Positions 1,278 through 48,508 of a DNA stretch of 48,713 bases are shown here, piece by piece. The notes under the pieces were generated by a model. That model ran no database searches, was not told the DNA's origin, and saw only the letters and a program-made list of their open reading frames with translations. The stretch covers positions 1 to 48,713 of IMG/VR virus record IMGVR_UViG_3300035698_003393, one strand, 5' to 3'. How positions within the stretch are numbered: position 1 is the stretch's first letter; each line of letters begins with the position of its first letter. Made by a program: the position numbers and the translations under genes. The stretch comes from a virus.

Positions 1278-3257
1278 CTAATTTGCAAAAAAGTTATCAG
1301 TGTCAGTTATCTTGGCAGTAAACCAAGAGTTTAGCATGAGGTGCCCGATCTTTTTTAATCCAGGGTCACGCCTCAGTAGTGTCTCTGCCCTGCCTTTCAT
1401 TTCGACTAGCAAACTGTAGTCGCTAATAATATCAGCATACTCCAGGTCGGGTATACCATGTTGTTCGGTTCCGAATATAGCACCGGGTCCACGCAATTTC
1501 AGATCAAGTTGTGCAATCTCTTCACCACAATCACAAGCACAGAACTGTTTTAGCCTGTCCCAGGCCCCATCTGAAACATCCTCCTCACAGGTATACAGTA
1601 GGCAGTATCCTTTATGTCCAGATCTGCCCACCCTACCACGTAGCTGATGTAACTGAGCCAGTCCGAATCTGTCGGGATCAGTGACTACCATAAGCGTAGC
1701 ATTCTCAACATGTAACCCTACTTCAATCACAGTAGTACAGCACAGCACATCAATTCTACCGCTTTTAAAATCATCCAGCGTATCCTCACAACGTCCCTTG
1801 GTCATTTGTCCATGAGCAATACAAGTACACCAGGGATTAGCTAGGGAGTTGAGATACTCAGACCATTTCTCCAAATCCTCCACGTTACTGCACACTATGT
1901 ATACCTGTTCACCCCGGTTCACGGTCTCTCGTATCTCGTACTCTACCGAAGCTAATTCATCAGTCGTCCAGGTCTCACGGTCTGGCTCCACCCATGGCTC
2001 CAGCCTGCTGTGATCCATATCACCCAAAGCACTAACCAACAGCGTCCTGGGTATCGGTGTGGCTGTCATCGTCAACACATGGGGACTATGTCCTGCTATA
2101 CGCCTCTGATTCATGCCGAACTTATGCTGCTCATCGAACACAATCAGCCTTAGATCTTTATACCCCAAGTCAGCGAACTGTACAGCTGTGGTCCCCACTA
2201 TGTACTGAATCTTTCCAGTGGCAATGCAGTGTAATGTGCTGGCTGATGGCTTACTGCTACCAGCTATCAGTACGACTTTATCAGTACCAACGAGGTCAAC
2301 CAGTGCACCGTACTGCTGTAGTGCCAGCACTGCGGTAGGCAGTATCATCACTGATTGACCACCGTTGCTCATCGCTGCCAACTGCATGGCGTAAAATGCC
2401 ACTGCCGTCTTACCTGATCCCACATCACCTACTACTAGCCGATTCATCGGTGTACGATTCCCCATATCCTCACGTATATTAGCCATGGCATCACTTTGTG
2501 AATCTGTCAACCCGAAGCCAAACTTCTGTTTAATCATGAGTTGGTCGATGAATGGTATGCAGCATTCCTTAGCATCATGACGCACTGTGTTATTCTGCCT
2601 ACGCTTAGCAATAGCCAGCTGCCACAGTAACAGCTCTTTCATCTTGAAATGCTTTAGTGCCAGCTTCAGTTGCTCCCTGTCATGTGGAAAGTGTAATATC
2701 TCCAACATACTCTGTTCGAAACCTATCGCAAATTCAGCTGGTACAATGTCCGCTACCGTCACTTCATTAAGACACTTACGAATGATGGCTTTTATTGTGG
2801 TGCTTGGCATGCCCTTACTTGCAGGGTACACGCTACCAGCAACCTCAGACAGGTCATCATTCACACCGTACAGACTGGGGTTAACCATCTGCCGCGATCC
2901 CCTGTACGTTGACACCTTGCCGTATACATACATGCCACCACATGGAACCCCACCAAATCTGTTAAAGAACGTGATTCGTATGGTCTTGTGTCCCCCACTG
3001 GTTAACCTGCATGTAATTCGTTTCTGTCCATTCGTATGAACATACTCCACGTCAGATAGCACCCCACGGAATAGGTACATGGTCTTGTCATCAGCCCTGG
3101 CGTCATCCATGGCAGTGACATTTGGTACGAATTCCCAGTCACGTGGCTTGTAATACACAGCGTCACGCACTGTTTCTATACCCAGCTTGGCAAGCAGCTT
3201 GACCTTCTTGGGTCCAACGCCCTTCACGAAGCGGATACTGTCGTTTAGCTTAATCAT
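1278..3257 (-). CDS. recG: RecG-like ATP-dependent DNA helicase
   Basis: A 659-residue superfamily 2 helicase with the whole RecG architecture. A helix-hairpin-helix-like start (KGVGPKKVKLLAKLG) and a wedge/OB region (about 45-150) are followed by motor domain 1 with Walker A GDVGSGKT (about 277-284), DEQHKFG (about 375-381) and TATPIPRTL. Motor domain 2 ends in QLHQLRGRVGRSG and is followed by a RecG-type C-terminal segment. RecG reverses stalled forks and branch-migrates junctions, and length is close to cellular RecG (about 690). I start at the second methionine (MIKLNDS) because AGAGGTG lies upstream; a GTG six codons earlier is possible. Likely acts in fork restart or recombination-dependent replication with the Sak4-like ATPase and nucleases. 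Confidence 0.92.
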   Translation of the reverse strand: MIKLNDSIRFVKGVGPKKVKLLAKLGIETVRDAVYYKPRDWEFVPNVTAMDDARADDKTMYLFRGVLSDVEYVHTNGQKRITCRLTSGGHKTIRITFFNRFGGVPCGGMYVYGKVSTYRGSRQMVNPSLYGVNDDLSEVAGSVYPASKGMPSTTIKAIIRKCLNEVTVADIVPAEFAIGFEQSMLEILHFPHDREQLKLALKHFKMKELLLWQLAIAKRRQNNTVRHDAKECCIPFIDQLMIKQKFGFGLTDSQSDAMANIREDMGNRTPMNRLVVGDVGSGKTAVAFYAMQLAAMSNGGQSVMILPTAVLALQQYGALVDLVGTDKVVLIAGSSKPSASTLHCIATGKIQYIVGTTAVQFADLGYKDLRLIVFDEQHKFGMNQRRIAGHSPHVLTMTATPIPRTLLVSALGDMDHSRLEPWVEPDRETWTTDELASVEYEIRETVNRGEQVYIVCSNVEDLEKWSEYLNSLANPWCTCIAHGQMTKGRCEDTLDDFKSGRIDVLCCTTVIEVGLHVENATLMVVTDPDRFGLAQLHQLRGRVGRSGHKGYCLLYTCEEDVSDGAWDRLKQFCACDCGEEIAQLDLKLRGPGAIFGTEQHGIPDLEYADIISDYSLLVEMKGRAETLLRRDPGLKKIGHLMLNSWFTAKITDTDNFFAN

Positions 3258-3408
3258 GATCTTGGCACCTCTCACATAAGTTGCGATACCACCTAGTGTG
3301 TTTGACTAACTCAGAAGGTCGAAGCCTACACTGGCAATTCGAACACCTGGGCATCACATCTTTCTTCTTGGTCCTGTCTATCCAGGCCCACAATTTTAAC
3401 TCACACAT
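3250..3408 (-). CDS. Small zinc-ribbon protein
   Basis: A 52-residue protein beginning MCELKLWAWIDRTKKK. It carries a CSNCQCR...LCERCQDHD pattern, that is two CxxC pairs about 20 residues apart, the usual form of a zinc ribbon. Preceded by AGGAGGTATTAT-ATG, and by a perfect 8-bp hairpin just upstream (3426-3454). Its end overlaps the RecG start by eight bases, so the two are probably coupled. The fold is predicted from the cysteines alone. Confidence 0.75.
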   Translation of the reverse strand: MCELKLWAWIDRTKKKDVMPRCSNCQCRLRPSELVKHTRWYRNLCERCQDHD

Positions 3409-3425
3409 ATAATACCTCCTAATGG

Positions 3426-3454
3426 GGGGCTGTACCAGAATATAGCACAGCCCC
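3426..3454 (-). other. Hairpin upstream of ribosome site
   Basis: GGGGCTGT (3426-3433) and ACAGCCCC (3447-3454) form a perfect 8-bp stem with a 13-nt loop. No T-run follows on the minus strand, so it is unlikely to be a simple terminator. It sits 10-20 bases before the AGGAGG of the zinc-ribbon gene and could be a processing or translation-control hairpin. Confidence 0.55.
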
Positions 3455-3468
3455 ACGTTATGAAAGGA

Positions 3469-3681
3469 TTATTTGATCTTCTTGATACGGTGACACTCCA
3501 GTGTCAGTCCAGTCTCACCTGTTGTCACTTTGTAGGGCAGTGCCTTACGAGACGTTGATGGATGATGCACCACCATAGGTTCGTGACCTTCCCCTTTGGG
3601 GTAGGCACTACTTTCGGTGAACTCCTCATACGTCTGTGTTCCACGCTTGATGGGTTCGGATGTCTTTTTATTCGTGGGCAT
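3469..3681 (-). CDS. Hypothetical protein
   Basis: A 70-residue protein (MPTNKKTSEPIKRGTQTY...) that is polar and basic, ending in HRIKKIK. The start follows GGGGGGTTGCATTGAT, a ribosome site similar to that of the next gene upstream. It lies one base from the upstream gene (stop at 3683). No domain recognised. Confidence 0.6.
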   Translation of the reverse strand: MPTNKKTSEPIKRGTQTYEEFTESSAYPKGEGHEPMVVHHPSTSRKALPYKVTTGETGLTLECHRIKKIK

Positions 3682-3682
3682 A

Positions 3683-3931
3683 TCAATGCAACCCCCCTAT
3701 ATATTTTCCTGGATTGTTAGCATACAACTTACGTACTGCGGTACGACAGTCTGATCGTGTGTTGAACCAAGTATCGTCACCACTTTGTGCTATGTAACCT
3801 GATGCGGTTACAAACGTATGACCCTCCTTAGGTCTTACCACCGGAAGGCGTACGAACCAAGTACGTCCGTCTGGCCGTAGCCGTTTATCCCAATGGTGCG
3901 TTGACAGCACAATCTTTTTAGCCTTGGGCAT
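3683..3931 (-). CDS. Hypothetical protein
   Basis: An 82-residue protein beginning MPKAKKIVLSTHHWDK. I chose this start because GAGGGGGACAATTGAT precedes it and the upstream stop (3933-3935) lies just before it. The protein has the look of a small beta-rich domain with conserved-looking aromatic residues (TWFVRLPVVRP, TWFNTRSDC). No family recognised. Confidence 0.6.
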   Translation of the reverse strand: MPKAKKIVLSTHHWDKRLRPDGRTWFVRLPVVRPKEGHTFVTASGYIAQSGDDTWFNTRSDCRTAVRKLYANNPGKYIGGLH

Positions 3932-3932
3932 A

Positions 3933-4064
3933 TCAATTGTCCCCCTCTTCTTTTTCCATCTCCTCCAGGTATTCCCCATAGGTCATACCATTCTGATTCT
4001 TGGCTGTCGGTGTACCATCTACCAACTCTGCTACGCTGTCATCATGATCCACTTTGTTACGCAT
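3933..4064 (-). CDS. Small acidic protein
   Basis: A 43-residue, strongly acidic protein (MRNKVDHDDSVAELVDGT... ending EEMEKEEGDN). It starts behind AAAGGTATGCAGT and stops two bases before the ATG of the next gene, so coupling is likely. It is the first gene after the promoter at 4111-4139. Small acidic early proteins of phages sometimes act as DNA mimics or inhibitors; nothing here shows that specifically. Confidence 0.6.
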   Translation of the reverse strand: MRNKVDHDDSVAELVDGTPTAKNQNGMTYGEYLEEMEKEEGDN

Positions 4065-4110
4065 ACTGCATACCTTTCAAAAAGAAACTTTCGATTTTCG
4101 CTACTTATAA

Positions 4111-4139
4111 AGTATACAACACATTTTTCAGCTTGCAAA
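4111..4139 (-). promoter_or_regulatory. Leftward sigma70-type promoter with palindromic operator
   Basis: On the minus strand TTGCAA (4134-4139) is followed after exactly 17 bp by TATACT (4111-4116). The -35 box lies inside the inverted repeat GCAAAT-taatt-ATTTGC (4135-4151), which would suit a regulator binding site. The surrounding A/T-rich stretch 4065-4168 has no gene. The promoter would drive 4064 and everything to its left. Confidence 0.65.
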
Positions 4140-4168
4140 TTAATTATTTGCATTTTGTGAAAATAGCA

Positions 4169-4297
4169 TTATAGGACGCTAATTGCCTCCACGTCTCTTA
4201 TGTCAAACCAGGTAAATACGCATCCAGTATCCAGTAATATCTGGTCATCCATCATACAAACTATCGGGAATACTTCACGTGTTGCTAGTCTAGCCAT
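4169..4297 (-). CDS. Small hypothetical protein
   Basis: A 42-residue protein (MARLATREVFPIVCMMDD...) with two cysteines and an acidic C-terminal half. The start follows AAGAGGTAGTA, the GAGG coming from the last codons of the upstream membrane-protein gene. It is the last gene before the internal promoter at 4111-4139. No family recognised. Confidence 0.55.
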   Translation of the reverse strand: MARLATREVFPIVCMMDDQILLDTGCVFTWFDIRDVEAISVL

Positions 4298-4299
4298 TA

Positions 4300-4458
4300 C
4301 TACCTCTTGAAAATAAAGCCTTTACGTCTACGTCTACGTAGTATCAGGACGTCGGCAGCCACTACCACAAGGTAGAAGCCGATAATCCCTAGGACTACTA
4401 CAATTGCACTCATCAAGATAAACAAAGTACAGATTACGGCACTTAATCCTGGACTCAT
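4300..4458 (-). CDS. Small inner-membrane protein
   Basis: A 52-residue protein with one or two hydrophobic segments (about residues 5-37, ICTLFILMSAIVVVLGII then FYLVVVAADVLI) followed by a very basic tail RRRRRKGFIFKR. By the positive-inside rule the tail should be cytoplasmic. Its ATG overlaps the TGA of the upstream gene (ATGA) and has GGAGGTAGAAAA in front. Possible roles include a superinfection-exclusion or holin-like peptide, but no family is recognisable. Confidence 0.65.
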   Translation of the reverse strand: MSPGLSAVICTLFILMSAIVVVLGIIGFYLVVVAADVLILRRRRRKGFIFKR

Positions 4459-4664
4459 TTTTCTACCTCCTCTATATTGACGTCTACCACTTCACAGAAT
4501 GGCTTATGTTGATTCCCGAACTCTGCCTCAGTCCCAGAGGTGAAATCCCATGCAATATGAAACCAGGACCTGACTACCTTACGTGACTTGGTTCTAAGAT
4601 AAACATGGTCATCCATCTTAAAGAATGTCCCTGGATGTATGTCCTGTACCTTCTTTAGCATCAT
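4455..4664 (-). CDS. Hypothetical protein
   Basis: A 69-residue protein starting MMLKKVQDIHPGTFFKMDDHVYLRT, a short beta-rich domain with an acidic tail (VNIEEVEK). Its ATG overlaps the TGA of the upstream gene (ATGA), with GGGAGGA just ahead, and its own TGA overlaps the next ATG, so three genes form a coupled chain. Function unknown. Confidence 0.6.
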   Translation of the reverse strand: MMLKKVQDIHPGTFFKMDDHVYLRTKSRKVVRSWFHIAWDFTSGTEAEFGNQHKPFCEVVDVNIEEVEK

Positions 4665-5242
4665 TCCTCCCATAACATAGGCTGGTTGATTTCATTCATG
4701 GCACCAACAAAGGATGTGGGTTTCTTACCCCATGCCATCCGTATTATATGCCATACAACAGCTTGATACTCGCATGGTGCCAGACCGTACTGTTTTGCTT
4801 CCCGTATAATCTTCTTCTCCAGATTAACATATACCTTTGCAGTTAACTTCTTATGCTCCACACCGTAAGCTCTACAGATCCACACATCCACTGTCACCAC
4901 ATCCATATCCCCCCGCAAGTTTGCAGCGAAGCGACTAACCTTGGGGCCTGACAATTCTTCACGGTTTAAAGCTCTCACAATGTTCGGAATGTGAGCTGGT
5001 AAGAAGCCAGCGGAGTGCAGGAACTTTCCGTTCTCTTGCCACTGTTTGAATGCATTCTCTGCAAGTCGATAATTCTTCTTCACTGCTACCCTTGGAGAAG
5101 TTGCAGCCAATAAGTCGCAGAACAGATCTGTATTCGTACCATACACATTGAATATTGCCTTTCTCGCATCTTTGTACCATCCTGCGAATCTCCTTATTGA
5201 CAGCTTATCCACGTCTACTTTACGTCTTAAATATATTCTCAT
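4661..5242 (-). CDS. Hypothetical protein with nitrogenase/terminase-unrelated DNA-processing look
   Basis: A 193-residue mostly helical protein starting MRIYLRRKVDVDK behind AGGGGGTTTTAT. It carries a segment typical of phage proteins that act on crop-up substrates in pathways I cannot name (NEINQPMLWEE at the end, GVEHKKLTAKVYVNLEKK in the middle). The region from about residue 30 to 100 is basic and aromatic-rich. I do not recognise the family; the label should be read as hypothetical protein. It is the largest product in the 4.2-5.8 kb run. Confidence 0.6.
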   Translation of the reverse strand: MRIYLRRKVDVDKLSIRRFAGWYKDARKAIFNVYGTNTDLFCDLLAATSPRVAVKKNYRLAENAFKQWQENGKFLHSAGFLPAHIPNIVRALNREELSGPKVSRFAANLRGDMDVVTVDVWICRAYGVEHKKLTAKVYVNLEKKIIREAKQYGLAPCEYQAVVWHIIRMAWGKKPTSFVGAMNEINQPMLWEE

Positions 5243-5315
5243 ATAAAACCCCCTATGGGACACACCAGGGCTTTCAACCGCTTGATACTTGTTTCAGTGT
5301 GCCACGTAGGTTATT

Positions 5316-5525
5316 TTACATAAAGGCCATCATGAAATCAGGTTCTAGGCCAAAGAACTCTTCACAGATATCCCGTGCCCTACCAAGGTCACCCTCTTCC
5401 ACATACTCGTCGAACTGATCCTGGGCCTGTTCGATTACACGATCTGCATCTTCAGCATGCATCTCGTCACGCTCCATAAGCACACGTTTAATGTGTGCCT
5501 TGTCATATGTGTCCTCTTCTGGCAT
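5316..5525 (-). CDS. Small acidic helical protein
   Basis: A 69-residue protein starting MPEEDTYDKAHIKRVLMERDE. Almost all residues are helix formers with high Asp/Glu content, ending EFFGLEPDFMMAFM. The start at 5525 follows AGGGGGTAGT directly after the upstream stop; an earlier in-frame ATG has no ribosome site. It resembles a small helical binding protein or DNA mimic only in composition. Confidence 0.6.
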   Translation of the reverse strand: MPEEDTYDKAHIKRVLMERDEMHAEDADRVIEQAQDQFDEYVEEGDLGRARDICEEFFGLEPDFMMAFM

Positions 5526-5526
5526 A

Positions 5527-5796
5527 CTACCCCCTAAAATCGGCCTGTACATTCTCAATCACGACCATGCAGTTAGCTTGCTCATTCAAAGCACAGATCT
5601 GTTTGCACAACGTATCCACATGTCTGTTCAATGTAGGATAATCGTCCAGGATCACCTCTATTACCACAGACTTTTCTGGTTTGCCGTGCCATATCCCGTC
5701 AATCTTGTATACTGAAAAACAGTCCCAATGCTTTTGGACAAGATACTCTATTCCTTTCAAACGCTTATTCTCCGTATAGATTCGAACTCTAGTCAC
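5527..5796 (-). CDS. Hypothetical protein
   Basis: An 89-residue protein that starts at GTG (5794-5796) behind AGAAAGGGTAGGT. Sequence MTRVRIYTENKRLKGIEYL suggests a beta-alpha fold, with an amphipathic helix near the C-terminal part (ICALNEQANCMVVIENV). Its start region carries AAGTCC 10 bases before the ribosome site, the arrangement seen before most genes up to 8.7 kb. It is the left edge of the GACTT-rich interval. Confidence 0.6.
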   Translation of the reverse strand: MTRVRIYTENKRLKGIEYLVQKHWDCFSVYKIDGIWHGKPEKSVVIEVILDDYPTLNRHVDTLCKQICALNEQANCMVVIENVQADFRG

Positions 5797-5814
5797 ACCT
5801 ACCCTTTCTGGACT

Positions 5815-6108
5815 TTAGATTTCTTGAACAAAGTTAGTGCTACCGTTACTATTTCGGACTTCGATCTTAAACTTCCCACCTCCAAACGCACCCTTTGTGG
5901 AACTGAATGTTATTACTGACATTTCACTATCAAGGTCCCCATGCCCATACAGTAGGACTTGACCCTCAATTAATTTCTTACAGGCTGTGCCATCACATCC
6001 AGGGCATAGATGATCAGACCCGTGGACTTCCACCGCACAGTCTGAGACTTCTCTTGGGGGTTCCACTATTATGTGGTGTATGTTCCCCAAGTTCAGAGTT
6101 ATTCCCAT
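5815..6108 (-). CDS. Cysteine-containing hypothetical protein
   Basis: A 97-residue protein starting MGITLNLGNIHHIIVEPP. I use the ATG at 6108 because AAGAAAGGACAAAT precedes it; the longer frame (to 6162) would run through the stem-loop at 6140-6190. It contains CPGCDGTACKKL (about 36-45), a possible metal site, and a glycine-rich beta region near the end. Function unknown. Confidence 0.65.
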   Translation of the reverse strand: MGITLNLGNIHHIIVEPPREVSDCAVEVHGSDHLCPGCDGTACKKLIEGQVLLYGHGDLDSEMSVITFSSTKGAFGGGKFKIEVRNSNGSTNFVQEI

Positions 6109-6139
6109 ATTTGTCCTTTCTTGAACTAAAATATCCAGA

Positions 6140-6190
6140 GGGATACACTCGGAGCATGCCACTGTGCAGCCTTTTCATCGAGTGTATCTC
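6140..6190 (+). ncRNA. Stem-loop E0 (GACTT-associated family)
   Basis: GGGATACACTCG (6140-6151) pairs with CGAGTGTATCTC (6179-6190) over 12 bp, with one G-U pair if the + strand is read, around a 27-nt loop that can form a small GCA/TGC hairpin. A GAGACTT follows at the right edge. It sits between two leftward genes. Structure is visible; transcription is inferred. Confidence 0.55.
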
Positions 6191-6204
6191 ACTTGAGACT
6201 TCAG

Positions 6205-6219
6205 TTAGTGTTTACGCAT
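6205..6219 (-). CDS. Four-codon minigene MRKH with a perfect ribosome site
   Basis: AGGAGGTGA (minus strand, 6224-6232) is followed four bases later by ATG CGT AAA CAC TAA. The site is as strong as any in the genome, yet the frame is only four codons. It could be a minigene that traps ribosomes or tRNA, a leader peptide coupled to stem-loop E0, or the relic of a deleted gene. It lies directly after the radical SAM stop codon. Confidence 0.35.
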   Translation of the reverse strand: MRKH

Positions 6220-6230
6220 AGGGTCACCTC

Positions 6231-6737
6231 CTAATCATACCGCATAAACTCTTCCCCGTCGGGAAGCGGACAATCCTCTGGCTCCAGCCATTTCAGCTCT
6301 GTTACGGTCCAATTCGCCAGAGGTAATCGTAACCTGTAATCAATACCTTCAAACACACAGAGTTTCATTGACTTGCCAGAACAGTGTCCGTTCTGTACAA
6401 GCTCCATGAAGCATCGGCATTCTTGTACGTCTTTCTGGTCATGCAGAGTGAGTGTTATCCCGTCTATCAGTTTCATGATACACAACAGTGGATGAGCACA
6501 ATCTGCCTTTGCAGTGTACAGGTAAATCTTTACAGTGGGGTTGACTTTACGTATTATACGTACAGCCTTAATGACCTTGAGCGGGTCTAGCATTGGTTCA
6601 CCACCTGTAAGACTTATTGCATGATAGCCAGTGAAATCAGTGGCCAGTGGCAGACTTGCTAAGTCAAACACCTTATTGCAGCATTTCTCACAATTTCGGT
6701 TACATACTGGACTCATTAGTAGTCGCAGTTTATCCAT
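6231..6737 (-). CDS. Small radical SAM protein
   Basis: A 168-residue protein with the radical SAM CxxxCxxC cluster motif as VCNRNCEKCC (Cys 12, 16, 19) and the SAM-binding glycine motif LTGGEPMLDP (about 44-53). Only about half of a full TIM barrel is present, similar in size to NrdG-type activases (about 155-200). Radical SAM enzymes use a 4Fe-4S cluster and SAM to make a 5'-deoxyadenosyl radical. No anaerobic ribonucleotide reductase or queuosine genes are in the genome, so the substrate is unknown. Start behind AGAAAGGATAAAT. It lies inside the GACTT-rich cassette. Confidence 0.85.
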   Translation of the reverse strand: MDKLRLLMSPVCNRNCEKCCNKVFDLASLPLATDFTGYHAISLTGGEPMLDPLKVIKAVRIIRKVNPTVKIYLYTAKADCAHPLLCIMKLIDGITLTLHDQKDVQECRCFMELVQNGHCSGKSMKLCVFEGIDYRLRLPLANWTVTELKWLEPEDCPLPDGEEFMRYD

Positions 6738-6770
6738 ATTTATCCTTTCTCGGACTTAAATTAACTTAGA

Positions 6771-6853
6771 CTTTCATGCAGGGGGACCTTAGTCCTTGGA
6801 CCCAATCCACGTAGTGTACCTGCCGTTTATGGCAAGGTCCCCTTGTATGAGAG
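6771..6853 (+). ncRNA. Stem-loop E1 (GACTT-associated family)
   Basis: CTTTCATGCAGGGGGACCTT (6771-6790) pairs with 6834-6853 over 20 bp. On the + strand 17 pairs are Watson-Crick and three are G-U; on the minus strand the three would be A-C mismatches. The 43-nt inner part can form CAC-gta-GTG and GCC-gtttat-GGC hairpins. AGACTT borders it on both sides. The outer arm is shared with E2 and E3; the inner arm differs with compensating changes. Confidence 0.7.
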
Positions 6854-6861
6854 ACTTAGCT

Positions 6862-7089
6862 CTATTTAGTGGATCTGCCTTCCCACTGATGGAGTTCGTA
6901 TACCCTATACCAGTACCCTCGGCATATGTATCCACAGTGGTGAGACTTGCCGCACACATCGTCTTCGTACATCAGCTTTATGGACTTCGTACCGCAATAG
7001 TTCTGGAGAACTATTCTGGGAGACTTCCCACACAGCTTGAGAGTTCCAGCGTACTGATCCTCAAAGATCCACAAAGAATCTTCTTTCAT
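6862..7089 (-). CDS. Cysteine-rich small protein
   Basis: A 75-residue protein starting MKEDSLWIFEDQYAG. Cysteines at LCGK, YCGT, VCGKSHHCGYICRGY suggest a zinc-binding domain. AGAAAGGG lies seven bases upstream; the earlier in-frame ATG is too close to it. The gene lies between stem-loops E1 and E2 and contains several AAGTC copies. No family recognised. Confidence 0.65.
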   Translation of the reverse strand: MKEDSLWIFEDQYAGTLKLCGKSPRIVLQNYCGTKSIKLMYEDDVCGKSHHCGYICRGYWYRVYELHQWEGRSTK

Positions 7090-7127
7090 ATTCATCCCTT
7101 TCTGGACTTAATTTAACTTTACTTAGA

Positions 7128-7206
7128 CTTTCATGCAGGGGGACTCTGTGAGCGTAGCATGTCGTTTATAATAGCGACCACTTCAGAGAGTCCCCTTGTG
7201 TGAGAG
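7128..7206 (+). ncRNA. Stem-loop E2 (GACTT-associated family)
   Basis: CTTTCATGCAGGGGGACTCT (7128-7147) pairs with 7187-7206. The outer half matches E1, while the inner half is changed on both sides (ACTCT with AGAGT in place of ACCTT with AAGGT). All four non-Watson-Crick pairs are G-U on the + strand. The loop can form GTCG...CGAC. Bordered by AGACTT left and GAGACTT right. Confidence 0.7.
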
Positions 7207-7208
7207 AC

Positions 7209-7496
7209 TTAGTGTAATCTCATTGCTCTGACCAAAGCTGGCCTACCACCATAACGCTCATGCCATGGTAGCCCTAGACTTTCCTTGTACCGGACTTGTC
7301 CAGTGTCTGAGTCATGGGACATGTACCAGTACTTGTCACCATTGTACAGCAGAGCATCCGGGAATCCGAGTACAGACTTGTCAAATGGCAGAGACTTATC
7401 ATATTCAAACCATAGCCACTTGACACCGTCCTGGTCAGTCCAGACCATCTTCGGGCAGACTTCACGTACTGGGTACGCCTTGTCTTGCTCGAACAT
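7209..7496 (-). CDS. Hypothetical protein
   Basis: A 95-residue, tryptophan- and tyrosine-rich protein (MFEQDKAYPVREVCPKMVW, then LWFEYDKSLP, NGDKYWYMSHD). Starts behind AGAAAGGTGTAAAT. Function unknown. It is the best place to see that the AAGTC motif ignores the reading frame: five copies fall in three different frames. Confidence 0.65.
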   Translation of the reverse strand: MFEQDKAYPVREVCPKMVWTDQDGVKWLWFEYDKSLPFDKSVLGFPDALLYNGDKYWYMSHDSDTGQVRYKESLGLPWHERYGGRPALVRAMRLH

Positions 7497-7525
7497 ATTT
7501 ACACCTTTCTGTGTATAGACTTAGA

Positions 7526-7611
7526 CTTTCATGCAGGGACTGTACGCCGACCGAGGTGCGACCATCGGCTCCTTACGGTATTTAACAGCTAATACAGTCC
7601 TTGTATGAGAG
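7526..7611 (+). ncRNA. Stem-loop E3 (GACTT-associated family)
   Basis: The arm CTTTCATGCAG of E1 and E2 recurs, followed by a different inner arm: GGACTGTA (7537-7544) pairs with TACAGTCC (7593-7600). The total stem is 19 bp with G-U pairs only on the + strand. The 48-nt inner part forms GCCGA...TCGGC with GGT-gcg-ACC inside. AGACTT borders it on both sides. Confidence 0.7.
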
Positions 7612-7613
7612 AC

Positions 7614-7757
7614 TTAGCTTGTACGCTTTGTGGTTCTGTGGTGCCAGCCCTTTTCATGGGACTCGACATTTCCACACCGTATGTGCAGACCACATTTGGC
7701 ACAGGTCTCGTACTTGGACTGCCCATTGGGATTCAGTCCTGGTTTTTTCTTGCTCAT
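7614..7757 (-). CDS. Small zinc-ribbon protein
   Basis: A 47-residue protein starting MSKKKPGLNPNGQSKYETC. It has TCAKCGLHIRCG and a His-rich end (SHEKGWHHRT), a likely CxxC...C/H zinc knuckle. The start follows AAGAAAGGGCGAAT, the standard ribosome site of this cassette. Its stop lies inside the right flank of stem-loop E3. Confidence 0.65.
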   Translation of the reverse strand: MSKKKPGLNPNGQSKYETCAKCGLHIRCGNVESHEKGWHHRTTKRTS

Positions 7758-7792
7758 ATTCGCCCTTTCTTGGACTTTAGACTTTGCTTGAC

Positions 7793-7996
7793 TTAACCTC
7801 TCTGGATGGTTATGTCACCATCAGACAGCCAGACTTCTTCTGTAATCATGGACTCCATCGTTAGGACTGCATCATCCCTATCGTCGGTGTGATAGTCCCG
7901 AGACTCTGCACGGACTCCATCTACCCAGACACGAATTATCCATTCATTCCAGACATTGTCCTTTACACGTTTAAATCTTACGTGCTTAGACTTCAT
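7793..7996 (-). CDS. Hypothetical protein
   Basis: A 67-residue protein (MKSKHVRFKRVKDNVWNEW...) with a basic N-terminus, a short beta region (IIRVWVDGVRAESRDY) and an acidic middle (HTDDRDDAVL). Starts behind AGAAAGGGGTTAAT. No stem-loop separates it from the next gene, unlike its neighbours. Family unknown. Confidence 0.65.
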   Translation of the reverse strand: MKSKHVRFKRVKDNVWNEWIIRVWVDGVRAESRDYHTDDRDDAVLTMESMITEEVWLSDGDITIQRG

Positions 7997-8030
7997 ATTA
8001 ACCCCTTTCTGGGTATAGTAATCTTAAATC

Positions 8031-8135
8031 AAGAGAGAACACGTGCTTTCAATGGGACTTGCACCCAGCCGTATGGTTTCAGTGGACGTACTGTCCCCTG
8101 ATAAGAGCATACAAAGACTTAGTATGTTCTCTCTT
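8031..8135 (+). ncRNA. Structured element E4 (cloverleaf-like)
   Basis: AAGAGAGAACA (8031-8041) pairs perfectly with TGTTCTCTCTT (8125-8135). Inside, GTGCT (8044-8048) pairs with AGCAT (8106-8110). Three hairpins follow: TGGG-acttgca-CCCA, AGCC-gtat-GGTT and GGAC-gtact-GTCC. The first hairpin loop holds the GACTT core. AAGACTT lies at its right edge. It resembles a cloverleaf but does not meet tRNA rules. Confidence 0.55.
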
Positions 8136-8147
8136 CAGCTAAGACTT

Positions 8148-8221
8148 CTACGTAGTGGGTCTCACTAATACCTGTTGGTATAGACTTCGACCGCCATGGT
8201 TCATCGAGACCCACTATGTGG
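8148..8221 (+). ncRNA. Stem-loop E5 (three-way junction)
   Basis: CTACGTAGTGGGTCTC (8148-8163) pairs with 8206-8221 over 16 bp, with one G-U and one U-G on the + strand. The inner 42 nt forms two hairpins, ATACC-tgtt-GGTAT and GACC-gccat-GGTT. AGACTT lies at both edges and once in the junction. The stem sequence is unrelated to E1-E3 but the layout is the same. Confidence 0.65.
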
Positions 8222-8226
8222 TAGAC

Positions 8227-8361
8227 TTAACTTGCAGGCATTAGTTCTAGAGAACATGCCTGGTATACCTCGGAGATTTGACCATTCGTCATTCCACCGA
8301 TTTCATGTGGTGCAAACCCAAACTCTGTATAGAGAGCGTCTGCCATATCCTGGATAGTCAT
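8227..8361 (-). CDS. Small hypothetical protein
   Basis: A 44-residue protein, MTIQDMADALYTEFGFAPHE..., mostly helical with no hydrophobic segment. Ribosome site GAAAGGAAGTCT lies directly before the ATG and itself carries AAGTCT. It sits between E5 and E6. No family recognised. Confidence 0.55.
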   Translation of the reverse strand: MTIQDMADALYTEFGFAPHEIGGMTNGQISEVYQACSLELMPAS

Positions 8362-8405
8362 AGACTTCCTTTCAATTAGGTGCTTATTTAGTTGTTTTTA
8401 TTCAA

Positions 8406-8465
8406 GAGGTCTCGGTGGACTTGCACCACCTTGCGAGTGACCTACTGTCATTGTCACAGACCTTG
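8406..8465 (+). ncRNA. Structured element E6 (three-way junction)
   Basis: GAGGTCT pairs with AGACCTT around two hairpins, GGTGG-acttgca-CCACC and GTGAC...GTCAC. The first has the same ACTTGCA loop as a hairpin in E4. On the minus strand this hairpin resembles a tRNA T-arm, but no matching D or anticodon arm exists. It lies just after the stop of the 8475-8714 gene. Confidence 0.5.
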
Positions 8466-8474
8466 TACTCCGAC

Positions 8475-8714
8475 CTACTTTTTCTTGTACACATTCACGC
8501 CCATACTGTAGACTACATTGTCCACTGATATAGGCTTGTTACCATGTGTGCTTGCATGGATTAGCGAGGTGCCTTTGCTTGAATCTTTACCCACTGCATT
8601 CCACGGAAGACTGATAATCAAACGGCCGTTTTGCACCTCAGAATAGATGTTAGTGTCAACAGGTGATGTTTTCGGACTTGACAACGAAGGTGCACTGTTC
8701 TTGGCTTTACTCAT
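8475..8714 (-). CDS. Hypothetical protein
   Basis: A 79-residue protein with a Ser/Pro/Lys-rich, probably disordered start (MSKAKNSAPSLSSPKTSP) and a beta-rich C-terminal half (RLIISLPWNAVGKD, NVVYSMGVNVYKKK). Starts behind GAAAGGGAATTGAT. Function unknown. It is the rightmost gene with dense GACTT neighbours. Confidence 0.65.
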   Translation of the reverse strand: MSKAKNSAPSLSSPKTSPVDTNIYSEVQNGRLIISLPWNAVGKDSSKGTSLIHASTHGNKPISVDNVVYSMGVNVYKKK

Positions 8715-8732
8715 ATCAATTCCCTTTCAAGG

Positions 8733-8804
8733 AAAAGAGTCTCTGCGTAGTGACATTATGGGACTTCCCATTGCCACATTTCGCAGTTAAATTGTCAAAG
8801 AGCA
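8733..8804 (-). promoter_or_regulatory. BoxA-like site followed by a long hairpin (E7)
   Basis: The minus strand reads TGCTCTTTGACAATTTAA (8787-8804), a near match to the boxA of gammaproteobacterial rRNA operons (TGCTCTTTAACAATTTA). It runs straight into a hairpin: CTGCG, GTGGCA and ATGGG pair with CCCAT, TGTCAC and CGCAG around an AAGT tetraloop. BoxA next to a hairpin is the layout of Nus-dependent antitermination sites. The first gene downstream is 8475-8714. Confidence 0.55.
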
Positions 8805-8875
8805 GTTTAGAGTATCCCTGTGTGCATCATTATCGGCCTTGCATTCAGTTAAAATGGTTGAACTAGGTCTGATAA

Positions 8876-9184
8876 CTAAGCGTAGACTTTACAGTCCTTG
8901 TATGTCGTGTCACATTCTAGGGGTGTCAACTTCTTGACTACCCATTCAACACCGCCTAAGTCCACTAAAAACGTCTTATTTGGTTTATACACCATGGATG
9001 CTTTTCGGAATCGTCCCTCTATAATCATTCCAAGGACTCCAAATGCGTCCCATAATGCATCTACCACGTTTTCAGCACGTACAACTCTGATATCATGACG
9101 TGCACCATGTTTCCATACTGCATAGTCTGATAACGTTGCCTTGCGTACCTTGACAGCTTGTGGTTTATCGGTCGTCTTGATCAT
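8876..9184 (-). CDS. Hypothetical protein
   Basis: A 102-residue protein (MIKTTDKPQAVKVRKATLSDY...), basic N-terminus followed by an alpha/beta region. Its start overlaps the upstream stop as TAATG behind AGGGGGCTATA, so the two are coupled. No family recognised. It is second in the leftward transcription unit. Confidence 0.65.
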   Translation of the reverse strand: MIKTTDKPQAVKVRKATLSDYAVWKHGARHDIRVVRAENVVDALWDAFGVLGMIIEGRFRKASMVYKPNKTFLVDLGGVEWVVKKLTPLECDTTYKDCKVYA

Positions 9185-9354
9185 TATAGCCCCCTAGAAC
9201 GAAGTAACCCTGAAAGTGTTTTGTACTCACATGCTGGTAAATTATCTAGATCCTGAGACCCGAATATTATACCATACCTTTCAACGTCGTCGTCATACCA
9301 GATATGGGCTATGACCTGTCGTCCTATGGGTGTGAAGCTAAATAGCTTTTTCAT
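9184..9354 (-). CDS. Small protein, first clear gene of the leftward unit
   Basis: A 56-residue protein. I start at ATG 9354 (MKKLFSFTPIGRQVIAHIW) because GAGG lies five bases upstream; a GTG at 9387 has no ribosome site. The protein is acidic in the middle (DDDVERYG). It follows the tandem promoters at 9.48-9.83 kb and a boxA-like site, and should be among the first genes expressed. Function unknown. Confidence 0.55.
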   Translation of the reverse strand: MKKLFSFTPIGRQVIAHIWYDDDVERYGIIFGSQDLDNLPACEYKTLSGLLRSRGL

Positions 9355-9400
9355 ATAGGCCTCATTTTCTAAGACCGATAATGACACACACAGTTTTACT

Positions 9401-9420
9401 TCTAAATTGTTAAAAGAGCA
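9401..9420 (-). promoter_or_regulatory. BoxA-like antitermination site
   Basis: The minus strand reads TGCTCTTTTAACAATTTAGA, identical to rrn-type boxA plus one extra T. It lies between the promoter at 9478-9506 and the first leftward gene, where an antitermination site would act on host RNA polymerase with NusB/NusE. Confidence 0.55.
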
Positions 9421-9477
9421 TACTACTTGTTTCCCCTATCCGTAGTGTTTTGTTTTCGTCATTCCCTTGCTACCTAA

Positions 9478-9506
9478 AGTATACATCATAACCAAACACA
9501 TGCCAA
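9478..9506 (-). promoter_or_regulatory. Leftward sigma70-type promoter P1
   Basis: Minus strand TTGGCA (9501-9506), 17 bp, TATACT (9478-9483). The upstream bases AATTCATTTGGCA are the same as at the promoter 9798-9826, so the two form a repeated promoter module. Confidence 0.75.
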
Positions 9507-9569
9507 ATGAATTCCAAACATTTTCTCGTTTTTCTTCATTTGTCACAGTTTAGGCAGAATAGCACAGCC

Positions 9570-9597
9570 ATTATAGGACAATGCTATTCAGTGTAAA
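9570..9597 (-). promoter_or_regulatory. Leftward sigma70-type promoter P2
   Basis: Minus strand TTTACA (9592-9597), 16 bp, TATAAT (9570-9575). The -35 lies inside GTGTAAACTGT (9591-9601), a sequence that recurs at 10827-10838 and inverted at 10587-10598, which could be an operator. Confidence 0.65.
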
Positions 9598-9609
9598 CTG
9601 TGCCATTCG

Positions 9610-9711
9610 TTAACACAATACAAGATACGCAAAACAAGCCAATACCCATACATATGATGGTAGGCCCCAGATGCGTATGCTTGCACACAGCCGATTTAAT
9701 GGCCTGTACAT
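9610..9711 (-). CDS. Possible 33-residue membrane peptide
   Basis: ATG at 9711 behind AGAGGTGTTACT encodes MYRPLNRLCASIRIWG followed by a hydrophobic segment (YVWVLACFAYLVLC) to the stop. It lies between promoters P3 and P2. The good ribosome site and amphiphilic layout support it; its small size and lack of relatives do not. Tentative. Confidence 0.35.
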   Translation of the reverse strand: MYRPLNRLCASIRIWGLPSYVWVLACFAYLVLC

Positions 9712-9730
9712 AGTAACACCTCTATTCTTG

Positions 9731-9742
9731 TATTAAAGAGCA
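9731..9742 (-). promoter_or_regulatory. Partial boxA-like site
   Basis: Minus strand TGCTCTTTAATA, matching the first ten bases of rrn-type boxA (TGCTCTTTAACA) with one difference in twelve. It lies downstream of promoter P3, as the other boxA-like site lies downstream of P1. Confidence 0.4.
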
Positions 9743-9797
9743 TACACGTAATACTGTGAACATACACGATACACTGTGTCATTCACTTGACCCCTAT

Positions 9798-9826
9798 AGT
9801 ATAATTCATGAAGTACGGTGTGCCAA
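9798..9826 (-). promoter_or_regulatory. Leftward sigma70-type promoter P3
   Basis: Minus strand TTGGCA (9821-9826), 17 bp, TATACT (9798-9803), followed by ATAGGGG. The bases upstream of the -35 match promoter P1. The iteron field begins 35 bp further upstream. Confidence 0.75.
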
Positions 9827-9860
9827 ATGAATTTAATGTAATTCGTGAAGATTGTGAATT

Positions 9861-10154
9861 CTAGGTAAATAAGTGTAGTATTCATAAGCACTTAGATGTT
9901 TTACCTAGGTAACAATAAAGTTACCTAGTCCACGTAAGTGTAGTAGTTATAGACGTTTATGTATTTTATTCTAGGTAACCTATGTAAAAAAACTCACACT
10001 AATCATTAGGGAACTAATAATATAATCAAAGTAGCTTTTAAGGTACCATAGTTCCAGTACAAAACAGTGCCAGATATTACCTAGAATACCTAGTTACCTA
10101 GAATTAATTGTTGTAAGTCCTATAATAATAAAAGCTTATGATTATTCTAGGTAA
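9861..10154. repeat. TTACCTAG iterons
   Basis: Nine copies of TTACCTAG or its complement: 9861-9868, 9901-9908 with 9905-9912 (a palindrome), 9921-9928, 9971-9978, 10077-10084, 10086-10093 (one change), 10094-10101 and 10147-10154. Several extend to TTACCTAGAAT. The field is A/T-rich. Such arrays are typical of replication initiator or regulator binding. I cannot tell which. Confidence 0.75.
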
Positions 10155-10252
10155 CATGCTACCAGGTAGCACAGTTGTGTAATGTGTCCCATCCTACTAT
10201 CAGTACTTACCCATTCCCCCTATCCCAATATAGAGGAGATACCGGGAACTCA

Positions 10253-10893: not shown

Positions 10894-10995
10894 TTTGTCT
10901 TCAGAGAGGGACACCTCCCGCCTGTAGGAGCGATCGATTCTTGACGTGGACGCATGTACGGATTTCCAAGGGGGCTGTGTCTCTCTGAAGACAAA
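10894..10995 (+). promoter_or_regulatory. Structured 5' leader of the rightward operon
   Basis: TTTGTCTTC plus GAGAGGGACAC-type bases at 10894-10914 pair with 10977-10995 over about 19 bp with one two-base bulge and one G-U. The inner 62 nt hold a CTCC...GGAG hairpin and CGATCG. The element ends 18 bases before the first rightward start codon (11014). Its design, a long closing stem with a small inner hairpin, resembles the E-elements of the leftward side, but without the GACTT borders. Confidence 0.6.
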
Positions 10996-22054: not shown

Positions 22055-23158
22055 ATGGCAGTAAAAAATGCAGATCTTGCTGATCTTCTCGCAACCACTA
22101 TTGAGGATCTTCCTCAGCAAGAATTCGAAGTGGGCTGGGATAATCCCGACTACGAATTCTGTAGGATCTACCAGAAAGAGCGAGTCGAGATTGACGGCGG
22201 AACTAAGATCGTCCGTAAGGTAATGCTGTCCAATACTGGCAATGCTCGCTATCGTCGACACTATGACAGTGACGAACCCGCAGTGGCAGATGTGATGCAA
22301 ACAATCGAGGTCCCTTGGGTACAACTCGGTACTCACTACAGTTGGGATAAGCTCGAAATCCTGCGTCAGAAAAGTTCTGTTAAGGGCTTCATCAAGCTCT
22401 TGTCTGTCCGTCGAATCGATGGTCTCTGGGCTATGGCTGAGCTGGTCGAAGACCGTGCTTGGATGACTCCCACGAATGCAGCCGATGACCTCTATCCTTA
22501 CGGTGTACCATATTACATCAACATGGTTGATGCAGATAGTACCACGGGTGGCTTTGTTGGTCAGACTATCCGCTATCAAGACGGAAGTACTGGCACTCTA
22601 TGTGCTGGCCTGGATGCAAGCACCAACGCCAAGTGGCGTAACTATGCTGATACCTATACAGCAGTCAACAACGACTTGCTGAAGAAGTTCCGTATCGCAT
22701 TCATGCGTACGAAGTTCCGTGCTCCTCTGTTCGTTGACGACCCCTCAAAGAGTCGATCTGCTCAGAAGAGAATCTATGCCGGTTACAACACTGTAGCCGA
22801 GCTGATGGACCTGGCTGATGCCAAAGATGATAACCACACTGGCAAAGACGTGCTCGGCAACCTGCGTGTTGATGATAGTGGCCTGGTTATGATCAACCGT
22901 ATCCCTGTCCAGTATATCCCGCAACTCGATGGTGTAGCTGATCCCGTCACGAATGACGAGACAGATCCCATCTACTGTGTCAATTACGCGAAGTTCATCC
23001 CCTTCGTCCAGTCTGACTATTGGATGGAAGAGACTGAGCCCATGTATGATCGTAGTCAACATACGACCTACACCGTGTTCCTTGATGGTTGTCATAACAA
23101 CCTGGTTACGAATCGTCGTGAATGCGGCTTCGTAATTCACAAACCTATCACTGCATAA
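22055..23158 (+). CDS. Major capsid protein
   Basis: A 367-residue protein starting MAVKNADLADLLATTIEDLPQ behind GGAGATACATT, right after the scaffold. Position, size and composition are those of an HK97-fold capsid protein. The E-loop/spine region is roughly residues 35-110. Two hairpins follow the gene (23165-23189 and 23211-23237), which could stabilise the mRNA or partly end transcription so that this gene is made in excess. Confidence 0.8.
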   Translation: MAVKNADLADLLATTIEDLPQQEFEVGWDNPDYEFCRIYQKERVEIDGGTKIVRKVMLSNTGNARYRRHYDSDEPAVADVMQTIEVPWVQLGTHYSWDKLEILRQKSSVKGFIKLLSVRRIDGLWAMAELVEDRAWMTPTNAADDLYPYGVPYYINMVDADSTTGGFVGQTIRYQDGSTGTLCAGLDASTNAKWRNYADTYTAVNNDLLKKFRIAFMRTKFRAPLFVDDPSKSRSAQKRIYAGYNTVAELMDLADAKDDNHTGKDVLGNLRVDDSGLVMINRIPVQYIPQLDGVADPVTNDETDPIYCVNYAKFIPFVQSDYWMEETEPMYDRSQHTTYTVFLDGCHNNLVTNRRECGFVIHKPITA

Positions 23159-46975: not shown

Positions 46976-47946
46976 AGCGTACCTGCTTTCTTATCAACTG
47001 CCAAACTATTTAATATTGACCGAGCTGATGTCAGGGGGCAGAATTCTGACCCATCCGACTTGTACTCGCTTACGTAGCGTGTATTTGTCCCCATGGTATG
47101 ACGATGCTCAACTAGCATGCCTCTTGACATGAACCCATCAGGGTTGAAGAACAGTGCCGCATCACAATCATCCAGAATCTTGCAATCAACCTCAAGAATA
47201 GAAGCTTCATTAATGAAGCCACTTTTGAAGGCTAGGTTTACGAACTCTTCATGATCGGCTGGTACATAGAAATCTACTGTGGGGCACGCTTCACGCATCT
47301 CAGCCACATACTGTTTCGCCAGTAGGCAGTTCGCAGCCATTTGTTCATCTGTTGCATTAATACCATACCTACCACGGATACTGTGGCTTACATACACACG
47401 CAGTGGTTCGGATTCAGGTTCTTCAGGACAGGAGCCACATACAGCAGCTACTGGATCGATTGCATAGCTTTTTGCCCAGCCGACCTTGCCAGTTGGGACA
47501 ACAGCCCTGGTCGGAGTAGGTGGTAGTAGGGGCATATTCCGGTCGGCCTGTGGATCTTCAAAATCATCATCATACTCGGGTTGCTTAGCATACTTCGGCA
47601 TATCATCCAACTCAGGTGACAGCACACCGAGTGCTATCATTTCTTCGAAGTGGATGGCGAAGCCCAGGTTTGTACGTGCTTGAGCCAAGTGATCTTCATC
47701 AGTCAACCCCATTTTGTATGCCATGATGTGACGTTCGCAGGAGGCAATACAATCACTGATCGGCATGCCCTTTTCCCAATTGCGTGTCTCGTACTTCACG
47801 GCACCCTTGCCCAGCACAACACCCTCACGTTTGGCAGTATAGGGTGAAATGAGGTCGGGCCTTGGTTTGTCACCACCCCGATCACGTACTGCACCAGTAC
47901 CGAATGTTCTACGAGCACCACTGTCTTTCAATTCATAATCATCCAT
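46972..47946 (-). CDS. dATP/dGTP diphosphohydrolase-like N-domain fused to DUF4406-like C-domain
   Basis: A 324-residue protein behind AAGGAGAAATTCTA. Residues about 20-115 match the all-helical dATP/dGTP diphosphohydrolase N-domain family (KPRPDLISPYT ... KYETRNWEKGMP ... CERHIMAYKMG). Residues about 185-310 match a nucleoside-2-deoxyribosyltransferase/DUF4406-like Rossmann domain (VYVSHSIRGRYG ... DCDAALFFNPDGFMSRGMLVEHRH). The linker (about 120-180) is Pro/Asp-rich. The two halves suggest control of the dNTP pool during replication. No PurZ or DatZ gene is present. Confidence 0.75.
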   Translation of the reverse strand: MDDYELKDSGARRTFGTGAVRDRGGDKPRPDLISPYTAKREGVVLGKGAVKYETRNWEKGMPISDCIASCERHIMAYKMGLTDEDHLAQARTNLGFAIHFEEMIALGVLSPELDDMPKYAKQPEYDDDFEDPQADRNMPLLPPTPTRAVVPTGKVGWAKSYAIDPVAAVCGSCPEEPESEPLRVYVSHSIRGRYGINATDEQMAANCLLAKQYVAEMREACPTVDFYVPADHEEFVNLAFKSGFINEASILEVDCKILDDCDAALFFNPDGFMSRGMLVEHRHTMGTNTRYVSEYKSDGSEFCPLTSARSILNSLAVDKKAGTL

Positions 47947-48335
47947 TAGAATTTCTCCTTGATCTGATTGTCCATTGAACTTTCGTAGGATACCACAGCC
48001 ACTGCGTCGGGCACTGACTCAAGGCATCCCTTATTACGTAATGTCACTAATACATTACTCACCGTGCTGCATGAGATCTTCAGCAGCTGGGCCATCTGTG
48101 CATTAGTTAACCCCAGTCTGACCATAGTGCGAACTCTGTGCTGGCGTGGCGTTAGAATCGGAAACAATTGGGGGGCGAGTACCTCCATCTCGGACAGCCG
48201 ATCAAGTACCCAATCCTCTGACCTGCCCATAAGGTCTGCCACTTCTTGCACTGTCCATCCAGCATGGTCATGGTGACACATACGGAACACAGTGACCAGC
48301 TCCTGTGGTATTACTCTTTTGCAGTCAGCTGGCAT
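47946..48335 (-). CDS. HTH transcription regulator (sigma-70 region 4/LuxR-like)
   Basis: A 129-residue protein starting MPADCKRVIPQELVTVFRMCH behind AAGGGGGATATGCG. It has two HTH-like segments: WTVQEVADLMGRSEDWVLDRLSEM (about 28-51) and LTPRQHRVRTMVRLGLTNAQMAQLLKISCSTVSNVLVTL (about 60-100). The second matches the LuxR/sigma-4 type. Its start lies 25 bases inside the end of the upstream gene. It may control late transcription of the phage or host genes. Confidence 0.78.
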   Translation of the reverse strand: MPADCKRVIPQELVTVFRMCHHDHAGWTVQEVADLMGRSEDWVLDRLSEMEVLAPQLFPILTPRQHRVRTMVRLGLTNAQMAQLLKISCSTVSNVLVTLRNKGCLESVPDAVAVVSYESSMDNQIKEKF

Positions 48336-48508
48336 CGCATATCCCCCTTGATCATAAATTTCATGAACCCAGGAACATATTTCAGCAGCCATCTGCCAAA
48401 ACTATATTGGGTAAGTAGCATGAACCAGGCTTTGAACTTGTTTAACTTCGGTCGGCGTTTGTCAGCTCTGGCTTTAGAGCGTCTCATCGTACGTAATACA
48501 TTGCTCAT
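48311..48508 (-). CDS. Small basic membrane-associated protein
   Basis: A 65-residue protein starting MSNVLRTMRRSKARADKRRPK behind GAGGATAGATACA. The N-terminal 25 residues are very basic; the middle is a weak hydrophobic/aromatic helix (FKAWFMLLTQYSFGRWLLKYV), amphipathic rather than a clear membrane segment. It overlaps the junction gene and the HTH gene at its ends. Confidence 0.6.
   Translation of the reverse strand: MSNVLRTMRRSKARADKRRPKLNKFKAWFMLLTQYSFGRWLLKYVPGFMKFMIKGDMRCQLTAKE

Follow-up and report, generated by a model that had tools for sequence, protein, structure and literature searches.

Locus and small genes

The whole virus record IMGVR_UViG_3300035698_003393 (positions 1–48,713; 48,713 bases; referred to as the window) was analysed with respect to one block of small early genes, in which a short word, AAGTC(T/C), recurs almost always in one orientation and a set of hairpins, E0–E7, stands between the genes. 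The word array (43 copies of AAGTC in the mRNA sense, read as GACTT on the plus strand) extends over 5673–8889 on the minus strand. The early genes point leftwards (minus strand), away from a regulatory region at about 9.4–10.9 kb.

The genes of the block, all on the minus strand, are named here in the direction of transcription. The gene 8475–8714 is kept in two relatives, G014 (IMGVR_UViG_3300022696_000018, 49,199 bp) and G011; in this phage it falls inside the upstream part of the word block, and in G014 it immediately precedes the word block. It is followed by 8227–8361 (44 aa, no family; stop codon within TTAAGTCT), 7793–7996 (67 aa, phrog_7884, function unknown), 7614–7757 (47 aa) and 7209–7496 (95 aa, no relatives), the stop codons of the last two being within TAAGTCT, and by 6862–7095 (77 aa, no family). 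The gene 6231–6737 encodes a small radical-SAM-like, HxsC-like protein (CxxxCxxC and GGEP; G014 orthologue 8523–9056); as a minimal radical-SAM protein it resembles HxsC of crAss001-type phages. The block is completed by 5815–6108 (97 aa; leader AAGAAAGGACAAATATG) and, at its downstream end, 5527–5796, with the last copy of the word at 5673. A DUF7178 protein (4661–5263, minus strand) adjoins the word block downstream and is conserved in the relatives G001 and G003.

Word array

Within 5000–10000, 43 copies of GACTT were counted on the plus strand against 4 of AAGTC, the expectation being about 2.4; outside the block AAGTC occurs at background rate on both strands. The density in the block is about one copy per 75 bases over some 3.2 kb, and the chance probability, after correction for all words and windows, is about 5e-34. 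The base following AAGTC is T in 27 copies, C in 13, A in 3 and G in none; the bases flanking the word carry little information.

The array runs through genes and gaps alike. Twenty-one copies are wholly in genes, about threefold more than the 6.9 ± 2.1 found in synonymous shuffles, and they are distributed over the frames as 8/9/4; codon usage as the cause of the word was ruled out by such shuffles for this phage and for G014. The word often holds stop codons (TAAGTC, four genes) and is also found just ahead of ribosome-binding sites (AAGTCC-N1-3-GAAAGG). Its spacing is slightly more even than random (p 0.016); no helical or codon phasing of the spacing was detected. A role as a loop signal was considered and dropped, 9 of 43 copies being in small hairpin loops compared with 14 of 63 control pentamers.

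An earlier note on this DNA, made from the sequence alone, had taken AGACTT as the border of the hairpins. This did not hold: only about 9 of the 27 block copies touch a hairpin, while the pentamer spans genes and gaps throughout 5673–8889. What had passed for a border is a regional word array, a separate feature that is stronger and more unusual.

Hairpins

The hairpins occupy seven of the eight gaps of the block. Each follows the stop codon of the gene before it and precedes the ribosome-binding site of the gene after it, and all of them (E0–E7) are inside the word block; AAGTCT marks the mRNA 5' foot of E0–E5. E0–E3 and E5 are immediately upstream of ribosome-binding sites, mostly with AAGTCY in between. 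E0 (6132–6196) is located between the genes 6231–6737 and 5815–6108, with AAGTCT at its mRNA 5' foot (6201); E1 (6765–6859) between 6862–7095 and 6231–6737, with AGACTT at both feet; E2 (7120–7214) between 7209–7496 and 6862–7095; and E3 (7515–7620) between 7614–7757 and 7209–7496. E4 (about 8030–8132) has an 11-bp closing stem and an overall weak fold. E5 (8137–8232) belongs with E1–E3, as described below. E6 (8407–8464, minus strand) is a small three-way junction with a T-arm-like hairpin (GGTGG-UGCAAGU-CCACC) and a weak z-score. E7 (8742–8788, minus strand; apical loop AAGU; z −5.4), which is absent from the earlier note, stands ahead of the gene 8475–8714.

In a genome-wide scan of plus-strand stems the first seven places were taken by E3, E2, a hairpin at 10894–10995, E1, E5, a promoter dyad at 9541–9605 and E0; scores were 28.1 (E3), 27.6 (E2), 24.5 (E1), 23.5 (E5) and 19.3 (E0), with 18.9 as the best of a shuffled genome. 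Fold z-scores (plus/minus strand) were: E1, −5.1/−2.8; E2, −8.5/−4.3; E3, −5.6/−4.2; E5, −5.0/−5.2; moderate for E0, −2.9/−2.4; and weak for E4, −2.1/−1.6, and E6, −1.7/−2.3. The hairpins are real, and the minus-strand folds of the E elements still beat shuffles. The earlier statement that stem-loops fill most gaps between the small genes stands: E1–E3 and E5 are strong in both the scan and the z-scores, E0 is strong in the scan and moderate by z-score, E4 and E6 are weak, and E7 had been missed.

Two side observations concern individual hairpins. The same loop, UGCAAGU, is carried on different stems by E4 (8050–8065) and E6 (8410–8430) on the minus strand and recalls a T-arm; a tRNA origin of these elements was rejected, as ARAGORN calls none. 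The hairpin 10894–10995 (plus strand; −48 kcal/mol, z −5.2) immediately precedes the ribosome-binding site of the first gene to run rightwards (11014) and follows the design of the E elements with an unrelated sequence.

Could the hairpins be plain processing sites of the early mRNA, cut by RNase III as between the early genes of T7, and the word array be unrelated to them? Their position in seven of eight gaps (after a stop codon, ahead of a ribosome-binding site), stems of about 20 bp and the presence of a further strong hairpin ahead of the first rightward gene are in favour of it. However, the hairpin and word blocks coincide, AAGTCT is placed at the 5' foot of E0–E5, and A·C mismatches are conserved in the coding-strand stems; this explanation is regarded as quite improbable.

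Covariation of E1–E3 and E5

The borders of E1–E3 have 20 bases in common on the left and 19 (one variable) on the right, and the interiors do not align. Inside the 13 conserved pairs a further 7, 7 and 6 Watson–Crick pairs are formed in E1, E2 and E3, respectively, by differing letters; shuffle p values for these inner arms, beyond the conserved 13 bp, were 5e-5, 1e-4 and 2.5e-4. In E3 two pairs are lost on both sides. Shared outer arms with compensating inner arms (CCTT/AAGG, TCT/AGA, TGTA/TACA) had been described in the earlier note, and exactly these were found.

A covariance model was built from E1–E3 only; with it E5, which was not used in building, was recovered over its whole length and without a shift in register (26.8 bits; E about 1e-3 in 269 kb and 2e-5 locally). 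Compared with E1–E3, the diverged arms of E5 show, over the 13 pairs, four two-sided compensatory changes, two consistent one-sided changes and one mismatch. A shuffle control on the model alignment was uninformative, having taken in reverse-strand matches of the same elements.

Outside this genome no homologue was obtained: the model search of six relatives of the clade gave no E1–E3-like copy, a pattern search of IMG/VR gave no E1–E3 copies, patterns combining border and ribosome-binding site gave none or unrelated single matches in IMG/VR, and Rfam gave no family above the gathering score. Mobile host repeats were rejected as well: the both-arm pattern had no match in IMG/VR and, in GTDB genomes, just two that are put down to chance, neither of which has AGACTT or inner pairing. 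The proposed hairpin family with compensating changes is supported within this genome, E5 joining E1–E3 with its compensatory pairs; no statistical support for covariation beyond the genome came from IMG/VR, GTDB or the relatives searched.

These data bear on a second alternative, by which the hairpins would be portable joints (resembling promoter early stem-loops (PeSLs), repetitive extragenic palindromes or miniature inverted-repeat elements (REP/MITE), or cassette sites) spread by duplication while small genes are exchanged, AGACTT being a leftover direct repeat. E1–E3 do have about 20 identical border bases, different flanking small genes and AGACTT in direct orientation on both sides. The compensatory changes in the arms, however, argue for selection on pairing and not for recent copying; no transposase family was found in a Pfam scan of 41 further open reading frames, no copies are present in other genomes searched, neither a sigma-70-like promoter nor a U-tract, as in PeSLs, was found, and the words within genes are left unexplained. 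Module shuffling of this kind is improbable.

The strand on which the elements pair is a separate matter. The core pairing of E1–E3 and E5 is standard in 51 of 52 cases on the plus strand and in 39 of 52 on the coding strand, since wobble pairs of the plus strand become A·C on the minus strand. It was asked on this basis whether the plus strand is the functional one, as an antisense or structured RNA or as plus single-stranded DNA in which RGACTT words and continuous E stems act in regulation or replication. The G–U pairs in E1–E3 and E5 where the minus strand has A·C, the stronger plus-strand fold and word sites slightly more open than controls on that strand (p 0.006) agree with this. On the other side, the wobble asymmetry is based on some five columns of a single family and E0 is balanced; the block has no strong plus-strand promoter, and it is the minus strand that bears the genes with their ribosome-binding sites. 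The asymmetry is not decisive, the elements being related and the independent events few; taken as proof of the strand, it was discarded after counting over all stems. A plus-strand role of this kind is given a low probability.

Leader and regulatory region

The leader of the operon contains two sites of the rrn boxA type (TGCTCTTTNACAATTTA-like) and one shorter site, all on the minus strand: TGCTCTTTGACAATTTA at 8795–8804, TGCTCTTTTAACAATTTA at 9411–9420 and the shorter TGCTCTTTAATACA at 9733–9742. Three minus-strand occurrences of TGCTCTTTNA within 1 kb (9742, 9420, 8804) compare with 0.37 expected genome-wide, and two of them extend to ACAATTTA. We take the leader sites to be exactly like the E. 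coli rrn boxA sequence. The best match to a leftward promoter of the early operon, TTTACA-16-TATAAT, is at 9570–9597 (minus strand), inside the dyad 9541–9605. This dyad (24 positions) spans the promoter and is probably an operator. In addition, several copies of CTAGGTAA/TTACCTAG were seen in both orientations at 9860–10160 of the regulatory region and look operator-like; TACCTAG clusters are also present in the relative G025 (5564–5849). BoxA recruits NusB/NusE in rRNA operons (PMC4807359).

Relatives and a second word

The two ends of the 48,713-base record repeat each other, and the record is therefore probably a complete circular map. The phage is unclassified. Its replication genes (PolA-like polymerase, D5/P4-like primase, RecG-like helicase, RecB-like nuclease) and likewise its structural genes are diverged from known phages; the DNA polymerase has 28% identity to the closest GenBank phage and relatives at 37–41% in IMG/VR, a conserved 367-aa protein (22055–23158) is matched by many IMG/VR contigs at 60–93%, and a DNA search with the early region was without any match. 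By capsid identity the close relatives L201 and L202 stand at 93% and 84%. A phage-encoded RecG-like helicase (1278–3275, minus strand) is unusual for a 49-kb genome and was not found in the seven relatives checked.

About 30 long genomes of the clade were surveyed for oriented regional words with unique contexts. Two outliers were obtained, AGACTT in this phage (z 23.7) and AACGTGG in G014 (z 18.5), both with none on the other strand; the rest gave 12 or less. An array in all relatives was thereby rejected, as only these two stand out. Among 116 further contigs only L130 exceeded 12, with 14.8; its nine copies are crowded into 330 bases at the end of the contig and are probably a tandem repeat. 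Low-complexity cases from a broader pentamer scan (L051, G005, G007) were discarded, as was an array at the ends of G001, a tandem 15-bp repeat at first mistaken for a word array. In G001 (L094), CTCAC occurs 17 times on one strand in early genes at 1839–4314, which is borderline against the null.

In G014 the word AACGTGG is found in 12 unique contexts within 1.03 kb (0.11 expected; none on the other strand). In genes, 11 copies of ACGTGG were counted against 3.0 ± 1.4 in synonymous shuffles (0 of 2000 as high; frames 4/4/3). The word starts at a promoter-like TTGCAA ... TATACT (about 4000–4020) and continues through small genes to about 5.1 kb. The interval lies between orthologues of the phage genes 8475–8714 (40% identity) and 6231–6737 (41%), and hence represents the matching place with the same kind of array and another word; the small genes between the two orthologues are unrelated in G014 and this phage. 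As a side observation, a gap of the G014 word block (locus L288, 4555–4715) resembles a degenerate initiator tRNA (T-arm GTAGGGTTCAATTCCCTAC, CTCATAA loop), for which ARAGORN gave no call.

The change of word between relatives is pertinent to the main rival explanation, an oriented operator array at the DNA level, stoperator-like, at which a repressor or other DNA-binding protein blocks transcription of the early block, the hairpins being incidental or separate. Cluster A stoperators are characterised by just such sites, specific to the phage, oriented, present in many copies and different from one relative to the next (PMC6550527); upstream of the array is a divergent regulatory region that contains promoters and dyads, a helix-turn-helix/sigma-region-4-like match is present among the phage proteins, and 47946–48392 resembles a helix-turn-helix-like protein of G001. 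Against it, the sites are just 5–6 bp (7 in G014), very dense, half in genes and in all frames, their spacing is without helical phasing, and the array ends inside the operon. Known stoperators are longer, about 13 bp. Such a DNA array is considered unlikely, though it deserves more weight than the alternatives given above.

Proposed function

The explanation preferred here, tentatively and with somewhat less than even confidence, is that of an oriented phage-specific word array acting at the level of the early mRNA, together with leader hairpins which would process or insulate the small genes. In its favour, a typical DNA operator would be longer and less densely repeated than these sites, which moreover cross coding sequence and coincide with leader hairpins behind antitermination-type sites. 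The word, present in many copies, would serve as a recognition tag of the early message. Its reader may be an RNA-binding protein or an endoribonuclease with a specificity of 5–7 bases, encoded or recruited by the phage, and would determine how stable these particular messages are or how they are translated. The role of the hairpins would be to cut or insulate this polycistronic message, through processing of the RNase III type or protection of 5' ends, so that each small gene received its own leader, and the rrn-type boxA sites in the leader could let the polymerase pass the hairpins. If the specificity of the reader evolves, a relative would use a different word. Since no reader protein was identified, the mechanism is one that we infer; what the analysis establishes is the word pattern with its strand and frame behaviour, the return of such a pattern with another word at the corresponding locus of G014, and the conserved pairing of E1–E3 and E5.

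Several results weigh against this explanation. No RegB-, MazF- or RelE-like nuclease was found in the Pfam scan or among the 25 of 36 PHROGs families listed. In predicted minus-strand RNA folds the word sites are no more exposed than controls, and pairing in E1–E3 and E5 is better on the plus strand, opposite to the genes. No hairpin family of the E type is present in G014, so that words and hairpins may belong to separate systems; in G011, a truncated contig that has the upstream gene, the available 1.8 kb hold no such word.

More generally, and with slightly less confidence still than for the mRNA-level array, some phages of this clade may mark a single variable early block, at the level of its messages (or of its DNA), with a short oriented word that runs through coding and non-coding sequence alike, each phage having its own and the reader diversifying fast. 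No description of an oriented short word running through the genes of one early block was found in the open-licence literature, and an identity tag for early transcripts with a word of its own in each phage would be previously undescribed. Local one-strand motifs in coding sequence, with another word at the matching locus of a relative, imply strong local selection by an unknown reader, the discovery of which would reveal a new level at which phages control their early genes. Regional oriented word enrichment is a computable signature applicable to many uncharacterised genomes, and the hairpin family offers a compact test case of structure-conserving evolution between genes whose protein products are without relatives.

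Comparison with known systems

The nearest analogues are start-associated sequences (SAS) and extended SAS (ESAS), stoperators, the RNase III sites of T7 and PeSLs; none fits. The T4 RegB sites (GGAG) may also be compared: they are a short linear RNA motif of early messages, mostly at translation starts and in some cases in genes, read by a phage factor (PMC3014915). The present word is likewise a short linear motif in early messages with some copies in genes; the motif differs, RegB sites are not known as an enriched array, and a RegB-like protein was not found in the scans.

PeSLs of T4-type phages (Arbiol 2010 and Comeau 2014), to go by their citation in PMC4503421, consist of an early promoter and a terminator-like stem-loop; like the E elements, they stand between small genes in an early region that is variable. 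Unlike PeSLs, the E gaps gave no sigma-70-like minus-strand match in a search of the sigma-70 type, and unlike PeSLs or intrinsic terminators the E stems are not followed by a U-tract, the bases after the stems reading GAAAGUCUAAG.

In the early region of T7, RNase III-site hairpins stand between the small early genes of one polycistronic message. The E elements, as candidate processing sites, are likewise hairpins between small early genes; T7 is without a word array and the sequences differ. An RNase III site has two helical turns of double-stranded RNA; the E stems comprise 20–34 positions on the plus strand, with mismatches on the coding strand.

With the stoperators of cluster A (PMC6550527) the array shares many asymmetric sites in one orientation (43 versus 4; in G014, 12 versus 0) and a motif that differs between relatives. 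Stoperators are longer, repressor-bound DNA sites distributed genome-wide, whereas the word sites are confined to one early block of 3.2 kb and half of them are in genes.

SAS and ESAS of cluster K mycobacteriophages are 13-bp GGGATAGGAGCCC-like asymmetric motifs of unknown function found close to the start codons of numerous small genes, and about half of them are immediately preceded by inverted repeats able to form hairpins; orientation is single, one motif is present per start, and the inverted repeat (17 bp, conserved; spacer 4–13 bp) has a consensus that varies by subcluster (PMC3203893). A short asymmetric motif in one orientation, small genes and an inverted repeat just upstream (E0–E3, E5) are found here as well. 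In contrast to SAS and ESAS, the word has 5–6 bases and runs through coding sequence in all frames, and the hairpins are about 95–105 nt long with variable inner arms. The enriched word found in this phage is AAGTCY.

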